In this document: positions 31,569 to 42,310 of the stretch, in pieces
Layout: each line of letters opens with the position of its first letter
Position numbering within the stretch: the first letter of the stretch is position 1
Origin: Rhodoferax sp. PAMC 29310
GTDB taxonomy: Bacteria; Pseudomonadota; Gammaproteobacteria; Burkholderiales; Burkholderiaceae_C
Length of the DNA stretch: 64,000 bases
Reading direction: 5' to 3'
Assembly (NCBI RefSeq): GCF_017948265.1
Contig: NZ_CP072852.1
Span: 3,906,001 to 3,970,000 of the forward strand
The notes under the pieces: generated by a model
Told to the model about the DNA's origin: nothing
Databases searched by the model: none
Seen by the model: only the letters and a program-made list of their open reading frames with translations
Program-made: the position numbers and the translations under genes

Positions 31569-32714
31569 ATGAAAAAAGAAAAAACCTACCGATTCGAAAC
31601 ACTGGCCGTGCATGCCGGTCATGGTGTGGATCCCGCCACCGGCGCCGTGGTCGACCCCATTCATCTGTCTACCACCTTTGAGCGCGAGGCGGACGGCAGC
31701 TACCCCCGCGGTTATTAGTACTCCCGCAACGGCAACCCCAATCGCAACGGCTTGGAGACCGCGTTGTCGGCGCTGGAAGGCGGCGAGGCCTGTGCCACCT
31801 TTGGCTCCGGGCTGGCAGCCGTGACCGCCATTTTTCAGGGCCTGCAGCCCGGTGACCATGTGCTGGCCCCGCGCGACACCTACCACGGCACGGCCAACGT
31901 GCTCAAACACCTGTTTGCCAAATGGAATGTGAGCGCCAGCTTTGTCGACATGACCCGTGTGGACGACGTGGCTGCCGCTCTGCAGCCCAACACCCGCATC
32001 GTCTGGATCGAAACCCCGTCCAACCCCTTGCTGCAATGTGTGGACATCGTGGCGCTGGCGGACATGGCCCACCAAGCGGGCGCGCGTGCCATTGCCGACA
32101 ACACCTTTGCCTCCCCCGTGCTTCAGCGCCCGCTGGAGCTGGGCTGTGACATGGTGATGCACGCGACCACCAAGTACCTCGGCGGGCGCAGCGACGTGCT
32201 GGGCGGCGCCGTGGTGTCCAAATTGAATGATGATGCCTTTGCCCAAGTGCGCACTGCCCAGTTGTTTGGCGGCGGTGTGCCCTCGCCCTTTGACTGCTGG
32301 TTGGTCATGCGCAGCCTGCCCACGCTGCCGTACCGAATTCAGGCCCACTGCGCCAACGCCATGAAGGTCGCCCAGTTCCTGGACAGCCACCCCAAGGTGT
32401 CAGCCGTGCACTACCCCGGCCTGGAGAACAACGCTTTTCACGCGTTAGCCAAGAAGCAGATGTCCGGCTTTGGCGGCATGCTGAGTTTTGAAGTTAAGGC
32501 CGGCAAAGACGCCGCGATGGGCGTGGCACAGCACGTTGAAATCTTCACCCGCGCGACCAGCTTGGGCGGGGTAGAGAGCTTGATTGAGCACCGCGCGTCC
32601 ATCGAAGGCCCTGAGAGCAAAACGCCACAAGGCTTGTTGCGCGTGTCCGTCGGACTGGAGCATGCTGACGACCTGATCGACGACTTGTCACAGGCGCTGG
32701 AGCGCGTCGCCTGA
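31569..32714 (+). pseudogene. Cystathionine gamma-synthase-type PLP enzyme broken by one in-frame TAG
   Basis: Translation from ATG 31569 gives FETLAVHAG...PRGY, a TAG (31716-31718), then YSRNGNPNR and 330 further codons to 32714 in the same frame, 381 codons in total. The rest is intact: PLP-binding Lys in HATTKYLGGRSD, FGSGLAAVTAIFQGL, NTFASPVLQRPLELG. The stop falls just before the YSR motif that binds the PLP phosphate of the neighbouring subunit, so the truncated product would be inactive. The codon lost cannot be told: Gln, Glu, Lys, Ser, Leu, Trp or Tyr need one base change. It could be a nonsense mutation, a sequencing error or read-through. Substrate within the Cys/Met group is not assignable. 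The 3' end overlaps the convergent LysR gene by 27 bp. Confidence 0.85.
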
Positions 32715-33659
32715 AAGGGCGGGCGCTGCGGCAGGGGTGCATTGCGCCAACGCCGCGGCCACCATCAGCTGCGTTTGCTCAGTGAGGTAGTCCAGAAAAA
32801 CCAGGCTGCGCTTGGGCAAAAATTGGCGGCTGGGCAGCGCGGCGTACAGGCTGAACCGGCCGGTGATCCATTGCGGCAGCACGCGCACCAAGGCGCCACT
32901 GGCCAAATTGGCGGCCACCAAATCCACGGGCGCCGAGGTGATCCCCGCGCCATCCACTGTGGCCCGCAAGAGAGTGTCTGTGTGGTTGGCGAGCAGGGCG
33001 GGCGTCACCGCGATCACGACCGGCTCCTCAGGGCGGTCGCCTCGCATCAAGCGCCATTCGGTAGGGGACGAACCAGCAACTCTCAGACGCAGGCAGCAAT
33101 GGCTGGACAAGTCGGCGGGTGTTTGAGGCGTTCCTCGCTGTTTCAGGTAGGCGGGTGAAGCCACCAGAATCGCCTCGCCAGACACCACTTTGCGGGCAAT
33201 GATGTCGCCGTCATAACCGTCCGGGGCGCCAAACAAGGTGATGTCGTAGTCCTCAACCGGCGGCTCCTTGAAGGTCGCCACCTCCACATCCAGCTGAATT
33301 TTGGGGTAAAGCTGGCGAAACCCCGCCACCAGCGGCGACAGGATGTGACTGGCCAGCACCGGCGGTGCCAGCAGACGCAATACCCCTGACAACTCGTGCG
33401 TGTGTGCGCTGGCCACCTCGTCAGCGTCGTCAATGTCCCGCAGAATGCCGCGCACCCGGCTCAAGTAGGCTTCACCCGCATCGCTCAACGACAGGCGCCG
33501 GGTATTGCGGTGCAATAAACGCGTGCCCAAGTGGGTCTCCAAATCAGCCACCAGTCGAGTCACACCGGCCGGCGACAAATCCAAAGCCCGCGCGGCCGCA
33601 GCAAACCCGCCCTCGTCGATCACCCGTTCAAAGACTCGCATTGACAACAAACGATCCAT
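32688..33659 (-). CDS. LysR-family transcriptional regulator
   Basis: 323 residues from ATG 33659, with AGAGGTG about 8 bases before it (a GTG two codons upstream is possible). N-terminal HTH (FAAAARALDLSPAGVTRLVADLETHLGTRLLHRNTRRLSLSDAG) and a C-terminal effector-binding domain. It belongs to the CrgA-like subgroup common in Burkholderiales. Target unknown; no divergent gene is found within 690 bp, and the adjacent PLP gene is convergent. Confidence 0.9.
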   Translation of the reverse strand: MDRLLSMRVFERVIDEGGFAAAARALDLSPAGVTRLVADLETHLGTRLLHRNTRRLSLSDAGEAYLSRVRGILRDIDDADEVASAHTHELSGVLRLLAPPVLASHILSPLVAGFRQLYPKIQLDVEVATFKEPPVEDYDITLFGAPDGYDGDIIARKVVSGEAILVASPAYLKQRGTPQTPADLSSHCCLRLRVAGSSPTEWRLMRGDRPEEPVVIAVTPALLANHTDTLLRATVDGAGITSAPVDLVAANLASGALVRVLPQWITGRFSLYAALPSRQFLPKRSLVFLDYLTEQTQLMVAAALAQCTPAAAPALSGDALQRL

Positions 33660-34355
33660 ACCCACTCACCTCTTGAATTCAGGGTGTCGATTGTTGCGGT
33701 TTCAGTCAAAGGGTGATGCTGCTAAGGGTATTCCCTGAATCTGGCATCGGTTGCATGCAGTGCGCCTCTTTGTTGGTTCAGCGCTGAGTTGATTGCGCTG
33801 TTGGTCCAAGAGCGGGTCGGGATCAATGGTGGCGTGGGCTCCGGGCTGTTTCCGCATCGCAATCCAACTTTTTGCGCAAAAGCGGATTGTTGGAGGAGAT
33901 GACCTCGTGCGGACGTTATTGCAACGGCGGAACTGGAGTTCGATGTCTGACCATCGTCTTTCGCGCAAGTTGGCTGGCTCCCTGAAATCCCTTGCGGTAG
34001 TTCACCCAGCGCCTTCTAAAGTCAGATTCGCAGCGCTTAGCCTTCGACCGGGGCTAACAACCTCGCGTGCCCGATGGATTGTTTCAAGGTACAACTCATC
34101 TCGCCAGCACGCCCGTAGGTTGGCGCCAGCCGAAAGTCTGCGGACCGAGGGCGCCAATTGGAGCCCTAGACCCAATCCGGAAGAAGATTGCGGTTTCCTT
34201 GCCCGGAGCAAGTCATTGGTTCCGCGCCTTTTTTAAGTGAGGAATTGACAACACCTTGGCAAGGGCAAATCGTGATGCTCGCGCTGGTGATTTCATGATC
34301 TCTCTTGCCACTGACGACGGTTTCTCGACCTGAGTTGATTGCCCCGGAGGGGCCC
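33660..34355. other. About 700 bp without a recognisable gene
   Basis: Open frames of up to 147 codons exist on both strands, but none has a clear ribosome site, a conserved motif or a codon pattern like its neighbours. I see no tRNA, no transposase remnant and no clear direct repeat with the far side of the island (39919-40306). It separates the LysR gene from the accessory genes that follow. Confidence 0.4.
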
Positions 34356-34502
34356 ATGAAACCTCCCAACATTGCCTTTACCCTGGCCGCGTTGGCCGCG
34401 TTGGCCGCGTTGGCCGCGTTGGCCGCGTTGGCCGTCAGGCTTGAGGCAGCATTGAAAGAGCAAGCGCTCGATTTTTCATATTCCGCGAATACCGGGGCGT
34501 AA
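34356..34502 (+). CDS. Putative 48-aa small membrane protein with Leu-Ala-Ala repeats
   Basis: ATG 34356 is preceded by GGAGGGGCCC, a strong ribosome site. The product starts MKPPNIAFT, continues with five LAA/ALA triplets that would form one transmembrane helix (about residues 8-28), and ends in a polar tail (RLEAALKEQALDFSYSANTGA). It looks like a single-pass inner-membrane peptide or a signal sequence. I do not recognise it. Its repeat could be a chance product of tandem duplication. It lies 191 bp upstream of the large two-gene module and could belong to it. Confidence 0.4.
   Translation: MKPPNIAFTLAALAALAALAALAALAVRLEAALKEQALDFSYSANTGA
34383..34434 (+). repeat. 9-bp tandem repeat (GTTGGCCGC), about 5.5 copies
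   Basis: The unit TTGGCCGCG is repeated perfectly five times and then decays to TTGGCCGTC. Because the unit is 9 bp, copy-number changes would keep the frame of the 48-codon ORF and only alter the length of its hydrophobic helix. Confidence 0.9.
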
Positions 34503-34693
34503 GCCCGGTTGCGATACGCCAACCTCGTTGGACATGACTGCACATTGACAAATGCTCTAGTGAGGCGCATTGTCATCCCTTACACAGAATGTGTCCTGGA
34601 CTTCTAGATGTGAGCTCGCTTTCCTGCCTTCTCGCTGATCGTTAAAAGGGGCAAACAGCGAAACGGCCATCGCTGGCCGGAAAGGACTCAACC

Positions 34694-37288
34694 ATGCCTG
34701 AACTTTCCAATTCTCGGCGGCGCTTACATACCGCCACCTATGTCCCAATTCAGCGTGAACGCTCGGTTGAGCCAACCCCCGATCCGCGACACATCCCGAC
34801 CCGAGTCTGGGACAAGTTGAACTATCTTCGTTCGCTAGAACTCAGGCGTGTTGAGCTCAAGGGTCTGTCGGACCGGATTTCAAAGACCCGAGACCAAAAG
34901 CTGGCCAGTGATCTGACGGCGATTCGGGATATCGCAGTGGCGTTGGTCGAAGAAGCGCCATCTGCGATGCGGTCCGCAGCCCGCCTCGCTCCGTTCGGAG
35001 TCGCACCTCTGGTCGAGTTCGGAAGACTTGTCTCAAGCGGCCGGCGGCAACTTCGCCAAGACTTGGTGGCGAGTCTCGAACAAATCACGACCTGGTATCG
35101 GGCCCAGCTCAAGAACACGCATGCAGTCGCAAACAGTGGCGTGTCGTTGCGAACGGTGGCGAGTGACAGTCGCACTCCGGATGTCGCCGAGCGCCCGATC
35201 GGGGATGATCGTGCGGGCGGCTTGGCGCAGGCGCTGCGTTGGGCAGAGTCGGCGAATCCGGCGTCGATCGAGCTGGTCCAGGAGGTGTTCGCGCAATTCG
35301 TCGGGAGCAGCGTGCCCGATAACCGAACGTCGCTGTTCGATGCGCATCGGCAGCGGGCGGTTGTCGTCGATCTCCTCGCAGCTGCCGAGAAGTCCGCGTT
35401 GGATGCGACGTCCGGGTTCGAGGACCGAATGCGGATTGACCCGGTTGGCCGCCTCCACCTTGAGCGACTCGAGATGACACCGGTGGGACTCGAGCGGGGC
35501 GAGCTCGTATATACGGTGCCCCTGGCGCCGAGTGAGACGGTGAATATCAGCCATCGCGAGTGGTCGATTCGAACCGAGGAGTTCGAGAAGCTCATTCAAG
35601 ATGTGTTCGAGGACTTCAGTGAAGAGGGTGTGACTGAGAAGAGTGAACTCGCACAATCGACCGCGACCCAGACCCGCCATGCCTCGGCCTACTCTCTGTC
35701 TGCGAACTACTCGGGGTACGGGGTGAGCGCGTCTGTCAACTACGAGGCCAACTCCGAGAACGAGTTGGCGAAAAAGGACAGCCGAAATCAGAGCATCGCC
35801 ATGACTCGCAAGGCATCTGCCCGGTCCAAGCGAGATCACAAGCAGAGTTTCAAGGTGTCGTCGGTCGTCGGTACCGAGGACATGGAAGTGCGTGTCCTGA
35901 CGAACCCCAGTGATACCGAGGTGATGCGGGTTGAGTATTACCAGCTCATGCGGAAGTGGAAGGTCGAGCTCCGGCGCTACGGGCTGCGGATGACGTACGA
36001 CATTGCGATTCCAAATCCCGGTGCCGATTTGGCTACTCGTCTCGGCGAGATCAGGGATCTCGATGGCAAGATCGATTCCCCGTTCGAGTTTTCGCTACCA
36101 GTAGATGCGATTCGCCCTGACACCTGGCATGCATACGCGGCTGAGTATGGAGCGACTGTCAATGGCCCGCCGCTGCCCTTCGCGATGCACAAGAGTGCCG
36201 CTTTGCCAATGAAGTCCAAGGATGAATCGAAACGACCCGAGTGGCAAGCGCTTGAGTTTGACGTCGACCGCGATTACGTAGTGAGCAATGGGTTCGTACA
36301 AGCAAACTTTGGACACTGGGCAGCAGGCCCCGCCCCACACTTTGATGTCGAGCGGGACGAGGTTGGTCCCGTTACTTCTGGAGGCGGCTACACGAGCTCG
36401 CTCAAACATCTGCATGGAGAGTCAGGTCGTCTCCCGGTCGTTTATGTGACCGAGAACATTGGATCGGGCTTTGTGCAAGCAAGCCTGGAGGTATCGCCAA
36501 CGCCTTCGGCGTTGAAGCGCTGGCAATCGGATACTTGGCAGGCGATGCGGCGCAGTGCGGAAGAGTCGTTCTATCTCGAACGGCAGCGGCTGATCGACAA
36601 GCGCGATGGTTTGCTAAAGGCAGTCGCCGGTGTCGACGCGCTTACTCTGCGCAGAATGGAGCGCGAAGAGATCATGAAGGCGGTGCTGCGTTGGCTATTC
36701 GGGCCCGAATTCACGCTCGTGCCTGAAACCATTCAAGAACTGTTTGACGCCCTGGATAGCGGGCGCGACTTCGAGACCCCGGTGCCGACGACTCTGAACT
36801 CGTGGGAGCGGGTGCTGAAGTTCGGCGAGTTCATCAAGTTCATTCACCAGGCCATCGAGTGGGAGAGTATTCTCTACTTCACCTACCCCTATTTCTGGGA
36901 TTCACCCGAGAGCTGGCAACATAAGCTGTTTATGCAGCATCCGAACGCTCGGCATCAGGAGTTTCTGCGGGCTGGAAGCGCCCGGGTCGTCTTGACCATT
37001 CGCGAGGGATACGAGCGCAGTTTCACCGAACTGATGGAGGCCGGTGCGTTCGGTGAGCTTGTCCTGCCCGGCGCGGGCACGCATCCGTATCTGACGATCG
37101 CCGATGAGATCCGGAATTACGCCGAGACCAACTACCCGGGCATCCCGGCGGCAAACCCGGCTGACAACGACGACGAGGAAGCTGTTGAAGCTGGAGAGCG
37201 CGGCGTTCTCATTGGGCGTTGGTATGAGTTCACTCCGACGAGTGCACTTGATATCTCCATCAATTCGAGCTTGAACGACCTGCTGTAA
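34694..37288 (+). CDS. Large protein of unknown function, first gene of a two-gene module
   Basis: 864 residues from ATG 34694 with AAAGGA before it. I do not recognise a named family. No signal peptide. Residues 40-140 are helical and charged. Residues 255-300 (LERLEMTPVGLERGELVYTVPLAPSETVNISHREW) and 395-445 (VRVLTNPSDTEVMRVEYYQLMRKWKVELRRYGLRMTYDIAIPNPGA) look like conserved beta-rich blocks. Between them residues 330-350 alternate small polar and hydrophobic residues (SAYSLSANYSGYGVSASVNY), as in membrane-inserting beta hairpins, followed by a Lys/Arg/Ser-rich stretch. A C-terminal domain (740-850) has HPNARHQEFLRAGSARVVLTIREGYE and a final acidic linker. Codon choice (frequent GAG, CTC, CGA) differs from neighbours, suggesting transfer. 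The next gene follows after 74 bp. Confidence 0.85.
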   Translation: MPELSNSRRRLHTATYVPIQRERSVEPTPDPRHIPTRVWDKLNYLRSLELRRVELKGLSDRISKTRDQKLASDLTAIRDIAVALVEEAPSAMRSAARLAPFGVAPLVEFGRLVSSGRRQLRQDLVASLEQITTWYRAQLKNTHAVANSGVSLRTVASDSRTPDVAERPIGDDRAGGLAQALRWAESANPASIELVQEVFAQFVGSSVPDNRTSLFDAHRQRAVVVDLLAAAEKSALDATSGFEDRMRIDPVGRLHLERLEMTPVGLERGELVYTVPLAPSETVNISHREWSIRTEEFEKLIQDVFEDFSEEGVTEKSELAQSTATQTRHASAYSLSANYSGYGVSASVNYEANSENELAKKDSRNQSIAMTRKASARSKRDHKQSFKVSSVVGTEDMEVRVLTNPSDTEVMRVEYYQLMRKWKVELRRYGLRMTYDIAIPNPGADLATRLGEIRDLDGKIDSPFEFSLPVDAIRPDTWHAYAAEYGATVNGPPLPFAMHKSAALPMKSKDESKRPEWQALEFDVDRDYVVSNGFVQANFGHWAAGPAPHFDVERDEVGPVTSGGGYTSSLKHLHGESGRLPVVYVTENIGSGFVQASLEVSPTPSALKRWQSDTWQAMRRSAEESFYLERQRLIDKRDGLLKAVAGVDALTLRRMEREEIMKAVLRWLFGPEFTLVPETIQELFDALDSGRDFETPVPTTLNSWERVLKFGEFIKFIHQAIEWESILYFTYPYFWDSPESWQHKLFMQHPNARHQEFLRAGSARVVLTIREGYERSFTELMEAGAFGELVLPGAGTHPYLTIADEIRNYAETNYPGIPAANPADNDDEEAVEAGERGVLIGRWYEFTPTSALDISINSSLNDLL

Positions 37289-37362
37289 GGGCTGCGCGGT
37301 GTGTCCACCAGGCTCAGCTACCTGAAATCGTGCGCAAAAGAGGCTGAGAAGGAGAACCTTGG

Positions 37363-39918
37363 ATGACAGTGCTGAGTGTCTACGCGCTGCGCGGCAATGA
37401 CTTCATCGCCAGACAGGCGATCGCGAAGGTCCTTCTCGAGTTGCGACTGGATACAGCTATGCGCGACTTGTCCCGTGGCACTCATAATATTCTTGCCCAT
37501 GACCTTAGCGGGTCAGCGTTGCTGGTGGGGTTCCGGTCTGTGCTGGAGGACATCGAGAGGCAGTTCGAGAAGAATATCCTCACCCCCGAGCAGGCTCAGG
37601 CCATCCTGTTTGATCTCTTTCGCGCCTTCGCGCACGCCCCGCGATGGAATTCGAGCATTCCTCAGGAGTTTGCTTCGAACGTCGTTCCGGATGCGCTCAA
37701 GTCGATATACCTGGGCAGTGTCTTGTCCGAACCGTACCGGCTACGTGACAGCGATGGTGACGACGTTGTAGACTTGGATGAGTTGCTGACGACGCGCGAC
37801 CCGCTCCTGAACGACCGGATCCGGCGGGCAGGAGAGATGAAGACCGCGAAGCGATTGCGGGACGAACTAGAAGCCAGTGTTCTTGACCCGAAGATGGACA
37901 AGCCGGTACACGGCGCCACGCATCGAACATACATCGGCGATCAAGGGACACGCTACGGCAAAAGCACTGGTGGCTATATTTTCTTCAAGCCCGTGCCCGC
38001 AGGCGATCGTGGGCAGATCAAGATCCCAAGCCGACTGACGCTCGACCGGCGCAATGCCGTATCGATCAAGGTCTATGACGAAACACGCTCCGGCGGACTT
38101 GGCTTGGTGTTTGACCAACGGGTTGCGGCGGTGGTCAAAGGTGGCGGCCGGCTCAGGTTCTTTCGAGGTATGAAGCCGTCAGAGAGCTTCAACCCCGAGC
38201 GAGATGAGCGCATCGGTAACCGCTCGTTCACGCCGCTCCAGGGCGGCGCGGCTGACGGCCTGTTGGGTGATCTCGCTGTCGCCTTCGATCATGCATTTGC
38301 TACCGCCAACACAGGTCGAGCCCGGCTATCACCCGAAGACTACAACAACCGGGTTCGGCAATTCAACGTGGTCAGGCGAGCACAGGTCGAGGCGATCAGC
38401 GTCAGACTCGACAAGGCGACAAAAACACGGGTCGCCGAACTCGAACGAAGCATCGACCAGGCGACGAAGAGTCTCGCCACCTATTCAGATATTGTGTCAG
38501 AGGATGCATCGTTGATCACGGGCAGTCTGAGTCTTGGCCTGCTGGAGATGGAGATAGGTGCCGATGGCTCCGTAGCCCTAGAGCTGGCACAGGGCGATCT
38601 CTCGGCCAGTGAGTTTGCATCGATCCGAAGGACGTTCGACGGAAGCGTCAAGGCATTCAATGTCGAGTTCAGCGAAGACAGTCGAGCTCTGGCGACAAGA
38701 GTGGCGCTCTGGAACAAGGTGATGGAGGAGTATTACCAGTTCATCGATTCAGAGGAGTTCCTTTCGTATCTGGAAGCGCTGGAGTCACCGGAGCGTTGCC
38801 GCGAATATGCGACGGTCGCTGTCCGCCTGCTCAATAGCGAAGCGGGTGTCCGTTTCGCTGCTCAACTCCGGGCTGAGTCGCAGCGCCCGCGGTCGCGAAA
38901 GCGATCCACTCTGGCCAGCATGGTGATCAATGAACCCATCCCGCGCAGCGCTGAGGTCGAGGCGTCGTTGGCGGTTGTGGGGCAGGTTGCCGCGGTGCTG
39001 CTCAAGGTTGCTTCGGTCGAGGTCCGACTCGAGCTGTATCTCCGGATCGTCGACGGGCACCAACGGACTGGTGATGAGCTCAGGCTAACGCAGCAGGTAA
39101 TCCACCAGCTCCTGATGGCGGTGCAGCGCACTGAGGACGCAGGCATCATGTCGGATAGTGAGCGGTTTGCCTTCTATGTAAAGCAGCTGGAGGCGGCGTT
39201 CGACGCTCTGGCCAGTACGAAAGTCAAGCCCGCGGTGTTGGCTCAGATCCTGGGCAAGTTCGGCTCGATGCTGCAAGATGCTCAGTACCTGCAGCACGCA
39301 GAAGCTCGACGAGTATCGCTTTTGCAGTACGACGCCCGACAGAAGATTGCGCGTCGCTCCCCGACTCCGCGGCTGCAGTCCTACAGGCTGGTGGAAACGA
39401 AACCGGTATGGGGACAACAGGTGATCATGGCTGGTGCTGCCGGTTTTTCTCTGTTGTCGTTTGGAATCCGGGTTCGGCATCTGTTCAAGGAGCCCAGTGA
39501 TACGGCGACGATCGTCGGTACCGTGCTCGAGGGATCCGGTTTGGCCTTGACGCTGATCTCGGCGGCAGACTCGTTCTTGCCGTTCGTGCCACTGAAGGAC
39601 TATGCCTACGTCGCGAAGACGAAGTCGTCGTCGGTGCTTTTGCGCTTTGTCAGAATTGGAGGCCCGGTGGTTGGGGTCGCATCCCTCGTGCTGGAGGGGC
39701 TATTGGTGGGAGCGAAGACCAGCAAGTCGGGTAAGAGAAAGGCGTCCGCTCGGTTGCTGCTCAGCGGCGGCATGCTGGTGGGAGGCTTGGTGTATGGCTC
39801 CAACCCCATAGGCTGGGCCATTTTGATTGGCGGCACCGCCGCCCAGATGTGGATAGGTTCGACGAGCGCCACTTTCGAGCAGGCCACAAGCGAGCTGCGC
39901 AAGCTTTCTGCCTACTAA
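37363..39918 (+). CDS. Large protein of unknown function with calcium-loop motif and hydrophobic C-terminus
   Basis: 851 residues from ATG 37363, preceded by GAGAAGGAGAA. Not recognised as a family. Residues 129-140 (DSDGDDVVDLDE) match the EF-hand/thrombospondin-type-3 calcium loop at ligand positions 1, 3, 5, 9 and 12. Residues 340-370 are a likely coiled coil. Residues 685-835 contain four hydrophobic segments (about 686-702, 716-735, 766-784 and 798-831, the last long enough for a hairpin), comparable to colicin-like pore-forming ends. No signal peptide is seen, although calcium loops usually work outside the cytoplasm. Same codon style as the 864-aa gene, same strand, 74 bp apart: probably one operon and one system. 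Confidence 0.85.
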   Translation: MTVLSVYALRGNDFIARQAIAKVLLELRLDTAMRDLSRGTHNILAHDLSGSALLVGFRSVLEDIERQFEKNILTPEQAQAILFDLFRAFAHAPRWNSSIPQEFASNVVPDALKSIYLGSVLSEPYRLRDSDGDDVVDLDELLTTRDPLLNDRIRRAGEMKTAKRLRDELEASVLDPKMDKPVHGATHRTYIGDQGTRYGKSTGGYIFFKPVPAGDRGQIKIPSRLTLDRRNAVSIKVYDETRSGGLGLVFDQRVAAVVKGGGRLRFFRGMKPSESFNPERDERIGNRSFTPLQGGAADGLLGDLAVAFDHAFATANTGRARLSPEDYNNRVRQFNVVRRAQVEAISVRLDKATKTRVAELERSIDQATKSLATYSDIVSEDASLITGSLSLGLLEMEIGADGSVALELAQGDLSASEFASIRRTFDGSVKAFNVEFSEDSRALATRVALWNKVMEEYYQFIDSEEFLSYLEALESPERCREYATVAVRLLNSEAGVRFAAQLRAESQRPRSRKRSTLASMVINEPIPRSAEVEASLAVVGQVAAVLLKVASVEVRLELYLRIVDGHQRTGDELRLTQQVIHQLLMAVQRTEDAGIMSDSERFAFYVKQLEAAFDALASTKVKPAVLAQILGKFGSMLQDAQYLQHAEARRVSLLQYDARQKIARRSPTPRLQSYRLVETKPVWGQQVIMAGAAGFSLLSFGIRVRHLFKEPSDTATIVGTVLEGSGLALTLISAADSFLPFVPLKDYAYVAKTKSSSVLLRFVRIGGPVVGVASLVLEGLLVGAKTSKSGKRKASARLLLSGGMLVGGLVYGSNPIGWAILIGGTAAQMWIGSTSATFEQATSELRKLSAY

Positions 39919-40092
39919 AACCTCGCTTGTTGCGGTGACGTGGACGTCTTACGCGTGACGGCACTTCGGCGGTACAGCAGCCGGCGGATCCGTGGGTCAA
40001 TCACTGTCCGGTATCGGCGGCAACGGTCAGTGAACCGCCGGACTTGCGTGGCAGCAGTCAGTCTCAAAGACCACCCACTACGAAAAACCCCA

Positions 40093-40110
40093 TGACCGCT
40101 TCCGCCCGCA
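40093..40110 (+). repeat. 18-bp motif, inverted copy at 58050-58067
   Basis: TGACCGCTTCCGCCCGCA is an exact reverse complement of 58050-58067. Both copies are intergenic and next to a copy of the TAGCT-TGCGC repeat or within about 150 bp of it. It is probably part of a larger degenerate intergenic repeat. Confidence 0.55.
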
Positions 40111-40182
40111 AAGAAGCGGTTCATCTGAATTGAACAACCGATGATTCCGCTGGACCGGCGCTCATCAAGACCCGCCAAAGCG

Positions 40183-40220
40183 AAAAAAACTCCATGGCCT
40201 TGACGGCGATGGAGCTTTTT
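40183..40220. terminator. Bidirectional Rho-independent terminator
   Basis: The stem CTCCATGGCC (40190-40199) pairs with GGCGATGGAG (40205-40214) with one mismatch. It is flanked by seven A on the left and CTTTTT on the right. It can end both the 851-aa gene transcript (plus) and the htpG transcript (minus). Confidence 0.8.
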
Positions 40221-40242
40221 GAGTGGGTTGGATGGTTAATGT

Positions 40243-40296
40243 AGCTATGTTTTTAGTAGCTACTCCCGCTTATCTCGTCTGTGCTAGCGCCTGATT
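40243..40296 (+). repeat. Interspersed repeat (TAGCT-CGC-GCTAG family)
   Basis: GCTATGTTTTTAGTAGCTACTC, then CCGCTTAT, then GTGCTAGCGCCTGATTT. Same order and spacing of the TAGCT, CGCTTAT and GCTAG blocks as the copy at 44774. Confidence 0.5.
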
Positions 40297-40306
40297 TCTT
40301 TCAAAA

Positions 40307-42310
40307 TCAAGCGAGCAAAGCGTTCACGCGTTTCACATAGGCGGCTGGATCGGCAGGCATGCCACCTTCGGCCAACAGGGCTTGGTCGAACAGGATGTGG
40401 GCGAGGTCGTTGAAGTGAACCGAGCCCTCCAGCTTTTTCACCAACGGGTGGTCGGCGTTGACTTCCAGCACAGGCTTCACTTCAGGCGCGGTCTGGCCGG
40501 CTTGTTTGAGCATGCGCGCCAGTTGGGTGCTCATGCCGTCGTCCTGCACCACCAGGCAGGCGGGGCTGTCCACCAGGCGGGTGGTCACGCGCACGTCCTC
40601 GGCCTTGTCCTTCAGCGCTTCTTTGAGCTTGGCCAACAAGGGCTTGAAGGTCTCGGCAGCTTCTTCAGCGGCCTTCTTTTCGTCTTCGTCTTGTAGCTTG
40701 CCCAAGTCAACCGCGCCTTTGGCCACGCTTTGCAGTGGGGTGTCGTCAAACTGCTGCACGTAGTTCAGCGCCCACTCGTCCACGCGGTCGGTCATCAAGA
40801 GCACCTCAATGCCTTTTTTCTTGAAGACTTCCAGCTGCGGGCTGTTCTTGGCGGCGGCCAGCGTGTCGGCGGTGATGTAGTAGATGGCGTCCTGGCCTGC
40901 TTTCATGCGCGCCTTGTAGTCGGCAAAGCTCACGTTGACCGAGTCGGTGGTGCTGGAAGCAAAGCGCAACAGCTTGGCCAGACGGTCTTTGTTGGCAAAG
41001 TCTTCGCCCAGGCCTTCTTTCAGAACCGCGCCAAACTCGGCGTAGAACTTGGTGTACTTGCCAGCGTTTTTCTCGGCTTCGGCCTTGTCTTCTTCGCTCA
41101 AGACATCAGAAACCCCTGCGGTGGTGTCGGTCACGCCATCGGCACCGGCTGCGGGCAGCTTGTCGTTTTTGGCTAGGTCTTCCAGCATGCCCAGCACGCG
41201 TTTGGTGCAGCCTTCACGAATGGCTTTCACGTCACGGCTTTCTTGAAGCAGCTCACGGCTCACATTCAGGGGCAGGTCAGCGGAGTCAACCACGCCTTTG
41301 ACAAAGCGCAGGTAGGTGGGCAGCAGGGCTTCAGCGTCGTCCATGATGAACACGCGCTTCACGTAGAGCTTCACCCCGGCCGATTTTTCTCGGTTGTACA
41401 AGTCCATCGGCGCTTTGCCGGGTATGTAGAGCAACTGGGTGTATTCGGTGCTGCCTTCCACACGGTTGTGGGTATGGGCCAGCGGCGCTTCGAAGTCGTG
41501 GCTGATCTGTTTGTAAAACTCGTCGTACTGCTCTGTGCTGATGTCTTTCTTGGCGCGCGCCCAGATGGCGTTGCCCTTGTTGACGGCTTCCCACTCGCCC
41601 GTCTTGACCATGGCGCCGGGCTGGCGGCCGCCGTTTTCGTCGCTCGGGTTGATCAGTTCGCCGTCTTTCCACTCTTCCTTTTCCATCAAGATGGGCAGGC
41701 TGATGTGGTCCGAGTACTTGCTGATGATGCTTTTCAGCTTCCAGGCGCTGGCGTAGTCCAGAGCGTCGTCGCGCAGGTGCAAGATGACGCTGGTGCCACG
41801 TGCGGGGCGATCAATGGATTCGACTTCAAAGTCGCCCGCGCCGCCGCTGATCCAGCGCACGCCTTCGGAGGTCTGCATGCCCGCACGGCGCGATTCCACC
41901 GTGATCTTGTCGGCCACGATGAAGCCCGAGTAAAAGCCCACACCAAACTGGCCAATCAGCTGCGAATCAGACTTTTGGTCGCCTGAGAGCTTGCTCACGA
42001 AGTCTTTGGTGCCGCTCTTGGCAATGGTGCCCAGGTGATCAATGGCTTCTTGCGTGCTCATGCCAATGCCGTTGTCGGTGATGGTCAGCGTCTTGGCGTC
42101 CTTGTCAAAGGACACGCGCACTTCCAGTGTGGGGGCGTCTTCGTAAAGGCCGCTGTCGTTGATGGCTTCATATCGCAGCTTGTCGCACGCGTCCGAGGCG
42201 TTGGACACCAGCTCGCGCATGAAAATTTCTTTGTTGGAGTACAGCGCATGGGTCACCAGGTGCAGCAACTGGGCCACTTCGGCCTGAAAGGAATGGGTTT
42301 GCTTGGTCAT
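40307..42310 (-). CDS. htpG: Molecular chaperone HtpG (Hsp90)
   Basis: 667 residues. N-terminal ATPase signature [24 protein letters not shown] (near 24-47), [28 protein letters not shown]. The middle domain has [19 protein letters not shown], followed by an acidic Lys-rich loop and the C-terminal dimerisation domain. An ATP-dependent cytoplasmic chaperone in heat and oxidative stress. No typical sigma-32 promoter was clear upstream. Confidence 0.96.

Follow-up and report, generated by a model that had tools for sequence, protein, structure and literature searches.

A conserved gene and its exchangeable downstream partner in Rhodoferax sp. PAMC 29310: a candidate carrier and effector module

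The window analysed here is a stretch of 64,000 nucleotides from Rhodoferax sp. PAMC 29310 (assembly GCF_017948265.1, contig NZ_CP072852.1, positions 3,906,001 to 3,970,000 of the forward strand). It contains two very long adjacent genes, P1 and P2, which an initial annotation made from the sequence alone had singled out as an accessory module without recognisable family. The two open reading frames (ORFs) lie on the same strand and encode 864 and 851 amino acids, with 74 bases from the stop of P1 to the start of P2, just as that annotation had described. P1 is a conserved gene whose downstream partner slot changes family from lineage to lineage, and P2 is the occupant of the slot in this genome; the pair may consist of a carrier and an effector. 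The features of the pair, in window coordinates, are the following.

34681..34686, plus strand: AAAGGA, resembling a ribosome-binding site, 7 bases before the P1 start (read from the sequence)
34694..37288, plus strand: P1, ORF of 864 amino acids, conserved component of the module and carrier candidate
35651..35770, plus strand: Ser/Thr-rich hairpin-like segment of P1, residues 320-359, 38% Ser/Thr, low model confidence
36173..36499, plus strand: jelly-roll (beta-sandwich) domain of P1, residues 494-602, from the AlphaFold2 model
37155..37163, plus strand: place near P1 residue 822 where a T2SSG domain is inserted in homologues; domain absent from the P1 of the window
37349..37354, plus strand: AAGGAG, resembling a ribosome-binding site, 8 bases before the P2 start (read from the sequence)
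37363..39918, plus strand: P2, ORF of 851 amino acids, effector candidate that fills the variable partner slot in this genome
37747..37782, plus strand: calcium-loop-like motif of P2, residues 129-140, DSDGDDVVDLDE (read from the sequence)
38956..39024, plus strand: hydrophobic stretch of P2, residues 532-554, Kyte-Doolittle mean above 1.6 over 19 residues
39634..39714, plus strand: hydrophobic stretch near the C-terminus of P2, residues 758-784, Kyte-Doolittle mean above 1.6 over 19 residues

In distance from the mean codon usage of the window, P1 and P2 rank second and third of the 46 genes of at least 150 amino acids called there (the automatic caller trimmed P1 to 741 amino acids), which bears out the claim that their codon style differs from that of their neighbours, and each is the nearest neighbour of the other in codon usage. 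Their GC content is ordinary (0.59 for P1, 0.59 for P2, 0.593 for the window). The flank described as gene-poor is so: no gene of at least 150 amino acids is called between a LysR gene and P1. On the other side htpG (40307-42310, minus strand) is indeed convergent with the pair, but the terminator proposed between them was not recovered, a scan of 39918-40307 giving no terminator-like site. No RNA family reached threshold within 33000-41000, and no signal peptide was seen by eye in P1 or P2.

To judge from sequence similarity, P1 belongs to a large undescribed family and is not an orphan. When 8000 candidates were scored, 197 proteins including P1 itself were found at E ≤ 1e-3, so that it has at least 196 homologues, a lower bound, and the aligned core of the family is well conserved (a 15-row alignment was among those used). 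Neither P1 nor P2 reaches any Pfam cut-off, and searches of NCBIfam, PADLOC and the sequences of the PDB returned no row at E ≤ 1; the PHROGs and Pfam rows obtained are weak (E of 0.05 or more). Thus both proteins are without recognisable family, as had been claimed, and the confident profile match to a known unrelated family that would have refuted the initial annotation was found for neither. In particular, no known family of beta-pore-forming toxins in Pfam or NCBIfam is matched at cut-off by P1 or P2, and no toxin or pre-toxin domain from these collections is matched at cut-off by P2. The sources name P1 homologues either 'hypothetical protein' or, from a single domain, 'type II secretion system protein GspG'. 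By our own count this GspG-like domain (T2SSG, PF08334) occurs in 68 of the 119 listed P1 homologues, with an E-value of 3.8e-35 in that of L019, and in those four rows of the 15-row alignment that have it (P0051, P0077, P0110, P0118) it is an insertion near the C-terminus. The name type II secretion protein is rejected for the window, whose P1 does not have the domain. No description of the family was found in titles and the beginnings of abstracts, a search whose coverage excluded most subscription journals and all preprints and which leaves absence from print unproven. Read by eye, the distant P1 relatives (L031, L033, L074, L076, L078, L118) have in common an N-terminal motif like LFRFVxLRxP, and the close family starts with NSxRxxxKATYxPI.

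P2 has one homologue only, P0122, which is 77% identical, and a repeat search with P2 residues 480-851 returned the same single protein. P0122 and P0003, a P1 homologue (85%), are each listed on a 5664-base contig, which suggests that they lie on the same one. The calcium loop proposed for the second gene corresponds to the calcium-loop-like motif DSDGDDVVDLDE, which is kept as DTDGDDVVDLDE in P0122. Of 399 genomes from the taxonomic family of the window, the only one with P2 is its own.

A same-strand gene lies within 310 bases after P1 in 22 of 25 close loci, compared with 181 of the 358 other genes at these loci (automatic caller; Fisher p 2.5e-4), and in 19 of 22 (p 0.0015) when three near copies are dropped. 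Near copies of each other are the members of the pairs L016/L017, L014/L015 and L069/L070. A close locus entered the statistic if at least 1200 bases followed P1, and outside it stand the window, L012 (where the contig ends at P1), L079 (P1 fragments) and L020 (split P1). In L020 (1733-4908, on a contig of a Brooklawnia metagenome-assembled genome) P1 is split into two frames of 554 and 504 amino acids and is either a broken copy or an assembly error. When ORFs were read directly, the three loci missed by the caller (L006, L008, L019) proved to have a same-strand ORF that begins 4, 122 and 72 bases past P1, respectively. Among distant P1 relatives, seven of nine have a close same-strand neighbour, and the plasmid loci L117, L118, L119 and L120 have a same-strand gene after P1. 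In the Sinorhizobium plasmids L118 and L119 (5081-9727) a distant P1 relative (788 amino acids in L118) is followed after 39 bases by a protein of 746 amino acids without a family at cut-off. The P1 loci are not a random sample, 21 named genome contigs having been chosen by conserved peptide patterns.

Seven of 35 neighbour proteins scanned exceed a Pfam cut-off. They are partners that match Trypsin_2 (L003, 4.5e-7), PLDc_2 of phospholipase D (PLD; L009, 1.2e-11), Metallophos (L019, 2.7e-4; L022, 7.4e-14), patatin (L032, 5.6e-22) and Het-C (L071, 1.6e-6), together with a patatin protein (1.1e-28) on the upstream side of P1 in L033. Matches below cut-off are Tlde1 (L030, 1.5e-5), the PT-TG pre-toxin domain (L072, 0.0017), DUF4347 (L008, 0.0064), an EndoS-type barrel (L007, 0.03) and, for the second downstream gene of L120, Ntox4 (0.015). 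The partner in L023 is related to the PLD protein found in L009. From motifs read by eye, the partners of L005 and L007 are taken to be GH18-like, those of L011, L014 and L015 are assumed to form another glycosidase-like group (GHA), HG...C dyads as in clan CD peptidases are presumed in L008, L020, L031, L076, L116 and family X, and the partners of L073 and L074 are presumably M14-like. Several partners, P2 included, have hydrophobic stretches and no family.

When the partners, sorted into 16 types, are mapped on a tree of 25 P1 proteins, 17 changes of partner are required, the least possible number being 15. Ten of the 16 types are represented by one row each, and L004, L018 and P2 are treated as types of their own only for want of a family. 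L020, L022, L012 and the distant clade are outside this partner tree. Well-supported branches separate the two positions at which each of the PLD, Y, Z and GHA partners is found; the GH18 partners require two changes on the tree, with a single origin possible, and the X partners form one clade. Partner Y is common to a Microbacteriaceae genome and a cyanobacterial plasmid with distant P1 copies (E about 1e-110), partner Z occurs in L021 and L070 (about 1e-22), and the HG...C partner occurs in Tsukamurella, Ensifer and L076. Of five partners searched against 72,556 plasmid records, those of L016, L074 and L072 had no match and that of L029 matched its own record only; the HG...C partner of L031 (Tsukamurella) matched, besides its own record, two Ensifer records that are nearly the same length and that each have a P1 relative, and in the one that was read the HG...C partner and the P1 relative are two positions apart. 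Because the other partners matched nothing or their own record, only Ensifer is independent plasmid evidence of the pairing. The initial annotation had suggested a system of two components that might form pores or assemble at the surface. This proposal survives in part: a closely spaced same-strand gene is enriched after P1, which supports two components, but the second component is not fixed and the slot is filled by unrelated families, several of them effector-like. An obligate pairing of P1 with P2 is rejected at the level of the family, P1 relatives having other partners and P2 a single homologue. Whether homologues are always adjacent, the check that had been proposed, is a question that can be put to P1 only, and P1 usually has a close partner of varying family.

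P1 relatives are found in Pseudomonadota, Actinomycetota, Myxococcota, Chloroflexota, Nitrospirota, Thermodesulfobacteriota, Cyanobacteriota and an Aminicenantes genome, which makes at least eight phyla; distant relatives are found in Bacteroidota and in a haloarchaeon. The occurrence is sparse and mostly single-copy: of 398 genomes of the phylum of the window two have P1 (its own genome and one distant relative), and of 295 genomes from the genus of a Streptomyces carrier ten have it, six of them with close and four with distant or partial copies. None of 59 congeners of the window's genome has P1, and the nearest relative sampled (HtpG 94-96% identical) has other genes beside htpG, neither P1 nor P2 being among them. 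Given this sparse occurrence across phyla, the absence from congeners and the other genes at the htpG flank of the relative, the module is accessory and has moved between lineages. The P1 tree mixes phyla with strong support, for example joining Kineosporia with Methylobacter (100/100) and the P1 of the window with that of the actinomycete Rhizocola (95/95). An origin from a phage or virus was rejected: none of 50,697 phage records gave a match, and a scan of viral contigs confirmed no relative.

The AlphaFold2 model of P1 (predicted local distance difference test, pLDDT, 81; predicted template modelling score, pTM, 0.74) has a helical N-terminal part, very long strands at residues 251-277, 411-440 and 838-856, the jelly-roll at 494-602 and long helices thereafter. 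Residues 291-350, which include most of the Ser/Thr-rich segment, are uncertain, with ten-residue blocks of mean pLDDT under 60. The 38% Ser/Thr of residues 320-359 is the highest of any 40-residue window, the median being 13% (averaged over a 120-row alignment). The amphipathic-hairpin-like stretch of the initial annotation is thus real as a conserved Ser/Thr-rich segment, but it lies outside the best beta-alternating windows by hydrophobic moment, a result that argues against a simple amphipathic hairpin, and because this test did not single it out the idea of a membrane hairpin is a suggestion only. A Foldseek search of the PDB with P1 gave no match at E ≤ 0.001 (the best, Ena3A, has E 1.5e-3) and no overall fold match; BFVD gave four rows at E ≤ 1e-3, three with a root-mean-square deviation above 38 and one over 127 columns; and the VIA-align rows fall almost all inside residues 494-602, the best for the jelly-roll being BcsB. 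None of these rows is counted as evidence of relationship. The jelly-roll does not show a function, because it resembles many unrelated beta-sandwiches, and no pore-forming fold was recognised in P1 by the three comparisons, the Ser/Thr-rich segment being in a part of the model with low confidence. The model of P2, built from two sequences, is unusable (pLDDT 31.6).

The interpretation preferred here, with a probability of about 0.5, is that P1 and P2 form a module of two genes, a conserved carrier and an exchangeable effector, which was acquired horizontally and in which P2 is the local effector. P1 would bind or dock its partner and take it to a target beyond the cell that makes them. The jelly-roll might serve P1 for binding to a surface, and the Ser/Thr-rich segment might act on membranes as a hairpin; P2, which has a calcium-loop-like motif and two hydrophobic stretches, would be the effector carried here; and exit from the cell is assumed to occur by lysis or by an unrecognised route.

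Several observations weigh against this interpretation. Binding of the partner by P1, export, target and toxicity are steps that we infer. The slot is not uniformly filled with recognisable effectors: 28 of the 35 neighbour proteins pass no Pfam cut-off, no family at all is found for the partners of L004 and L018, the downstream gene of L033 and P2, and several assignments are weak or made by eye (the GH18-like and other glycosidase motifs, the HG...C dyads and the M14-like proteins). The partner in L022 also has an anticodon-binding domain (1.3e-20), which is not effector-like, and that in L006 is lipoprotein-like. P2 resembles none of the 33 other partner proteins when compared by hhalign, every probability being 0.4% or less, and nothing like an immunity gene follows it, the next gene being htpG on the opposite strand with no plus-strand ORF of at least 60 amino acids starting within 39918-40307. 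The arrangement itself varies: the distant relatives L077 and L078 have no close same-strand neighbour, L076 has a Mur ligase-like gene (by eye) first after P1 and the effector-like gene second, and L116 has the effector-like gene upstream. Finally, shuffled labels gave a mean of 20.4 partner changes on the tree, and as few as 17 in one of 200 shuffles; because the observed number is lower than that mean, partners are also partly inherited.

Three other explanations of the same pairing were weighed, the first of them concerned with the delivery route. P1 and its partner could be cargo of an extracellular contractile injection system (eCIS) that is encoded away from the particle genes. PF14065 (Pvc16_N, the eCIS tail terminator) occurs in 15 of 20 P1-bearing genomes, compared with none of 14 controls and 18 of 398 genomes of the phylum of the window, and the excess persists among the carriers other than seven Streptomyces (9 of 13, Fisher p 3e-9) and among Pseudomonadota carriers (3 of 6, p 0.002). 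However, carriers and controls were sampled unlike and carriers often have large genomes, most sequenced Streptomyces have an eCIS anyway (PMC10066040), and P1 and PF14065 are about 128 kb to 5.7 Mb apart in four one-contig carriers (G494, G519, G596, G786) and on different contigs in the others. According to PMC8213781, 1.9% of genomes were reported to have an eCIS, and environmental microbes are enriched among them. Because the genome of the window has neither PF14065 nor the type VI secretion system (T6SS) protein VipB nor the phage-type sheath PF04984, it keeps the module, by the markers searched, without a contractile system of its own; for this genome the eCIS route is rejected on the absence of PF14065 and PF04984, and the explanation as a whole is unlikely. 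A T6SS is rejected as a general route, VipB (PF05943) being found in 4 of the 20 carriers only.

The pair could instead act inside the cell as an immune module, in which P1 would detect an infection and then set free or switch on a toxic effector whose type varies. The sparse, mostly single-copy distribution and the lack of a visible signal peptide fit this explanation, and trypsin-like, patatin and PLD effectors are known from anti-phage systems. Some P1 copies lie in defence neighbourhoods, since on an Ensifer adhaerens plasmid (L116, 1426-10647) a P1 relative and its HG...C partner are flanked by a DrmB gene of DISARM (2.4e-75) and a weak ThsA match (4.5e-4), and an Aulosira plasmid has restriction genes. 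However, P1 and P2 have no match in PADLOC, nor do the P1 homologues of L005, L009 and L118 or the partners of L118, L003, L076 and L010 (E ≤ 0.01); the neighbours in the window are not defence-like by eye; and partners of the glycosidase-like, Tlde1-like and Het-C kinds would be unusual choices for suicide effectors acting in the cytosol. An immune function is likewise unlikely. The proteins could also form a secreted hydrolase complex for polymers of prey, host or plant, with P1 as a binding scaffold rather than a membrane translocator, as might be expected from the several partners that resemble enzymes hydrolysing lipids, proteins or glycans and from BcsB as the best row for the jelly-roll. 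That match goes no further than a common fold, P1 has no visible signal peptide, and none of the 34 proteins compared, P2 and 33 partners, exceeds a mean of 1.6 over 19 residues at the N-terminus (the value for L022 is 1.59, and the test did not include the lipoprotein-like L006), all of which makes a secreted complex unlikely.

To return to the carrier with its exchangeable effector, a wider form of this interpretation, which is tentative and rather doubtful, is that P1 founds an undescribed class of carriers without a contractile apparatus of their own, present in many phyla and perhaps in haloarchaea, which would deliver effectors of unrelated families encoded by the next gene, the GspG-like domain serving as a built-in calcium-binding or assembly module. 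A conserved partner that has repeatedly been combined with unrelated enzymes and toxin-like proteins points the way to unknown effectors, and any gene after P1 becomes an effector candidate, many unannotated proteins included. If P1 delivers its partners, it would represent a compact principle of protein delivery across distant bacteria and perhaps archaea.

Upstream of the module, at 31569-32714 (plus strand), lies a gene resembling those of pyridoxal-phosphate enzymes, presumably of the methionine or cystathionine lyase type, with an in-frame stop at 31716 through which its counterpart in the relative G014 (L110, 6533-7678) reads; it may be a decayed gene or reflect a sequencing error.

VgrG and PAAR are carriers of effectors in contractile systems, and P1 resembles them and DUF4157 in that a conserved gene precedes one for an effector whose family varies. 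It differs from all three in having no Pfam or NCBIfam match at cut-off and in occurring, in the window, in a genome without the three contractile-system markers searched; DUF4157 proteins are associated with eCIS (PMC11297309). The likeness to polymorphic toxins (PT-TG, Ntox) lies in the few partners with PT-TG-, Ntox4- or Tlde1-like matches below cut-off or a Het-C-like match above it, whereas the conserved and variable parts are here separate genes, P2 has no such domain and it is followed by no immunity-like gene. The T2SSG domain recalls the GspG pseudopilin (PF08334), but in the P1 homologues that have it, it makes up a single domain in a far larger protein, inserted near the C-terminus in the aligned rows, and it is missing from the P1 of the window. 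Binary and beta-pore-forming toxins likewise come to mind from the two adjacent genes and the Ser/Thr-rich hairpin-like segment of P1; from these the pair differs in having no sequence match or clear fold match to them, and in a second component that changes family between lineages.

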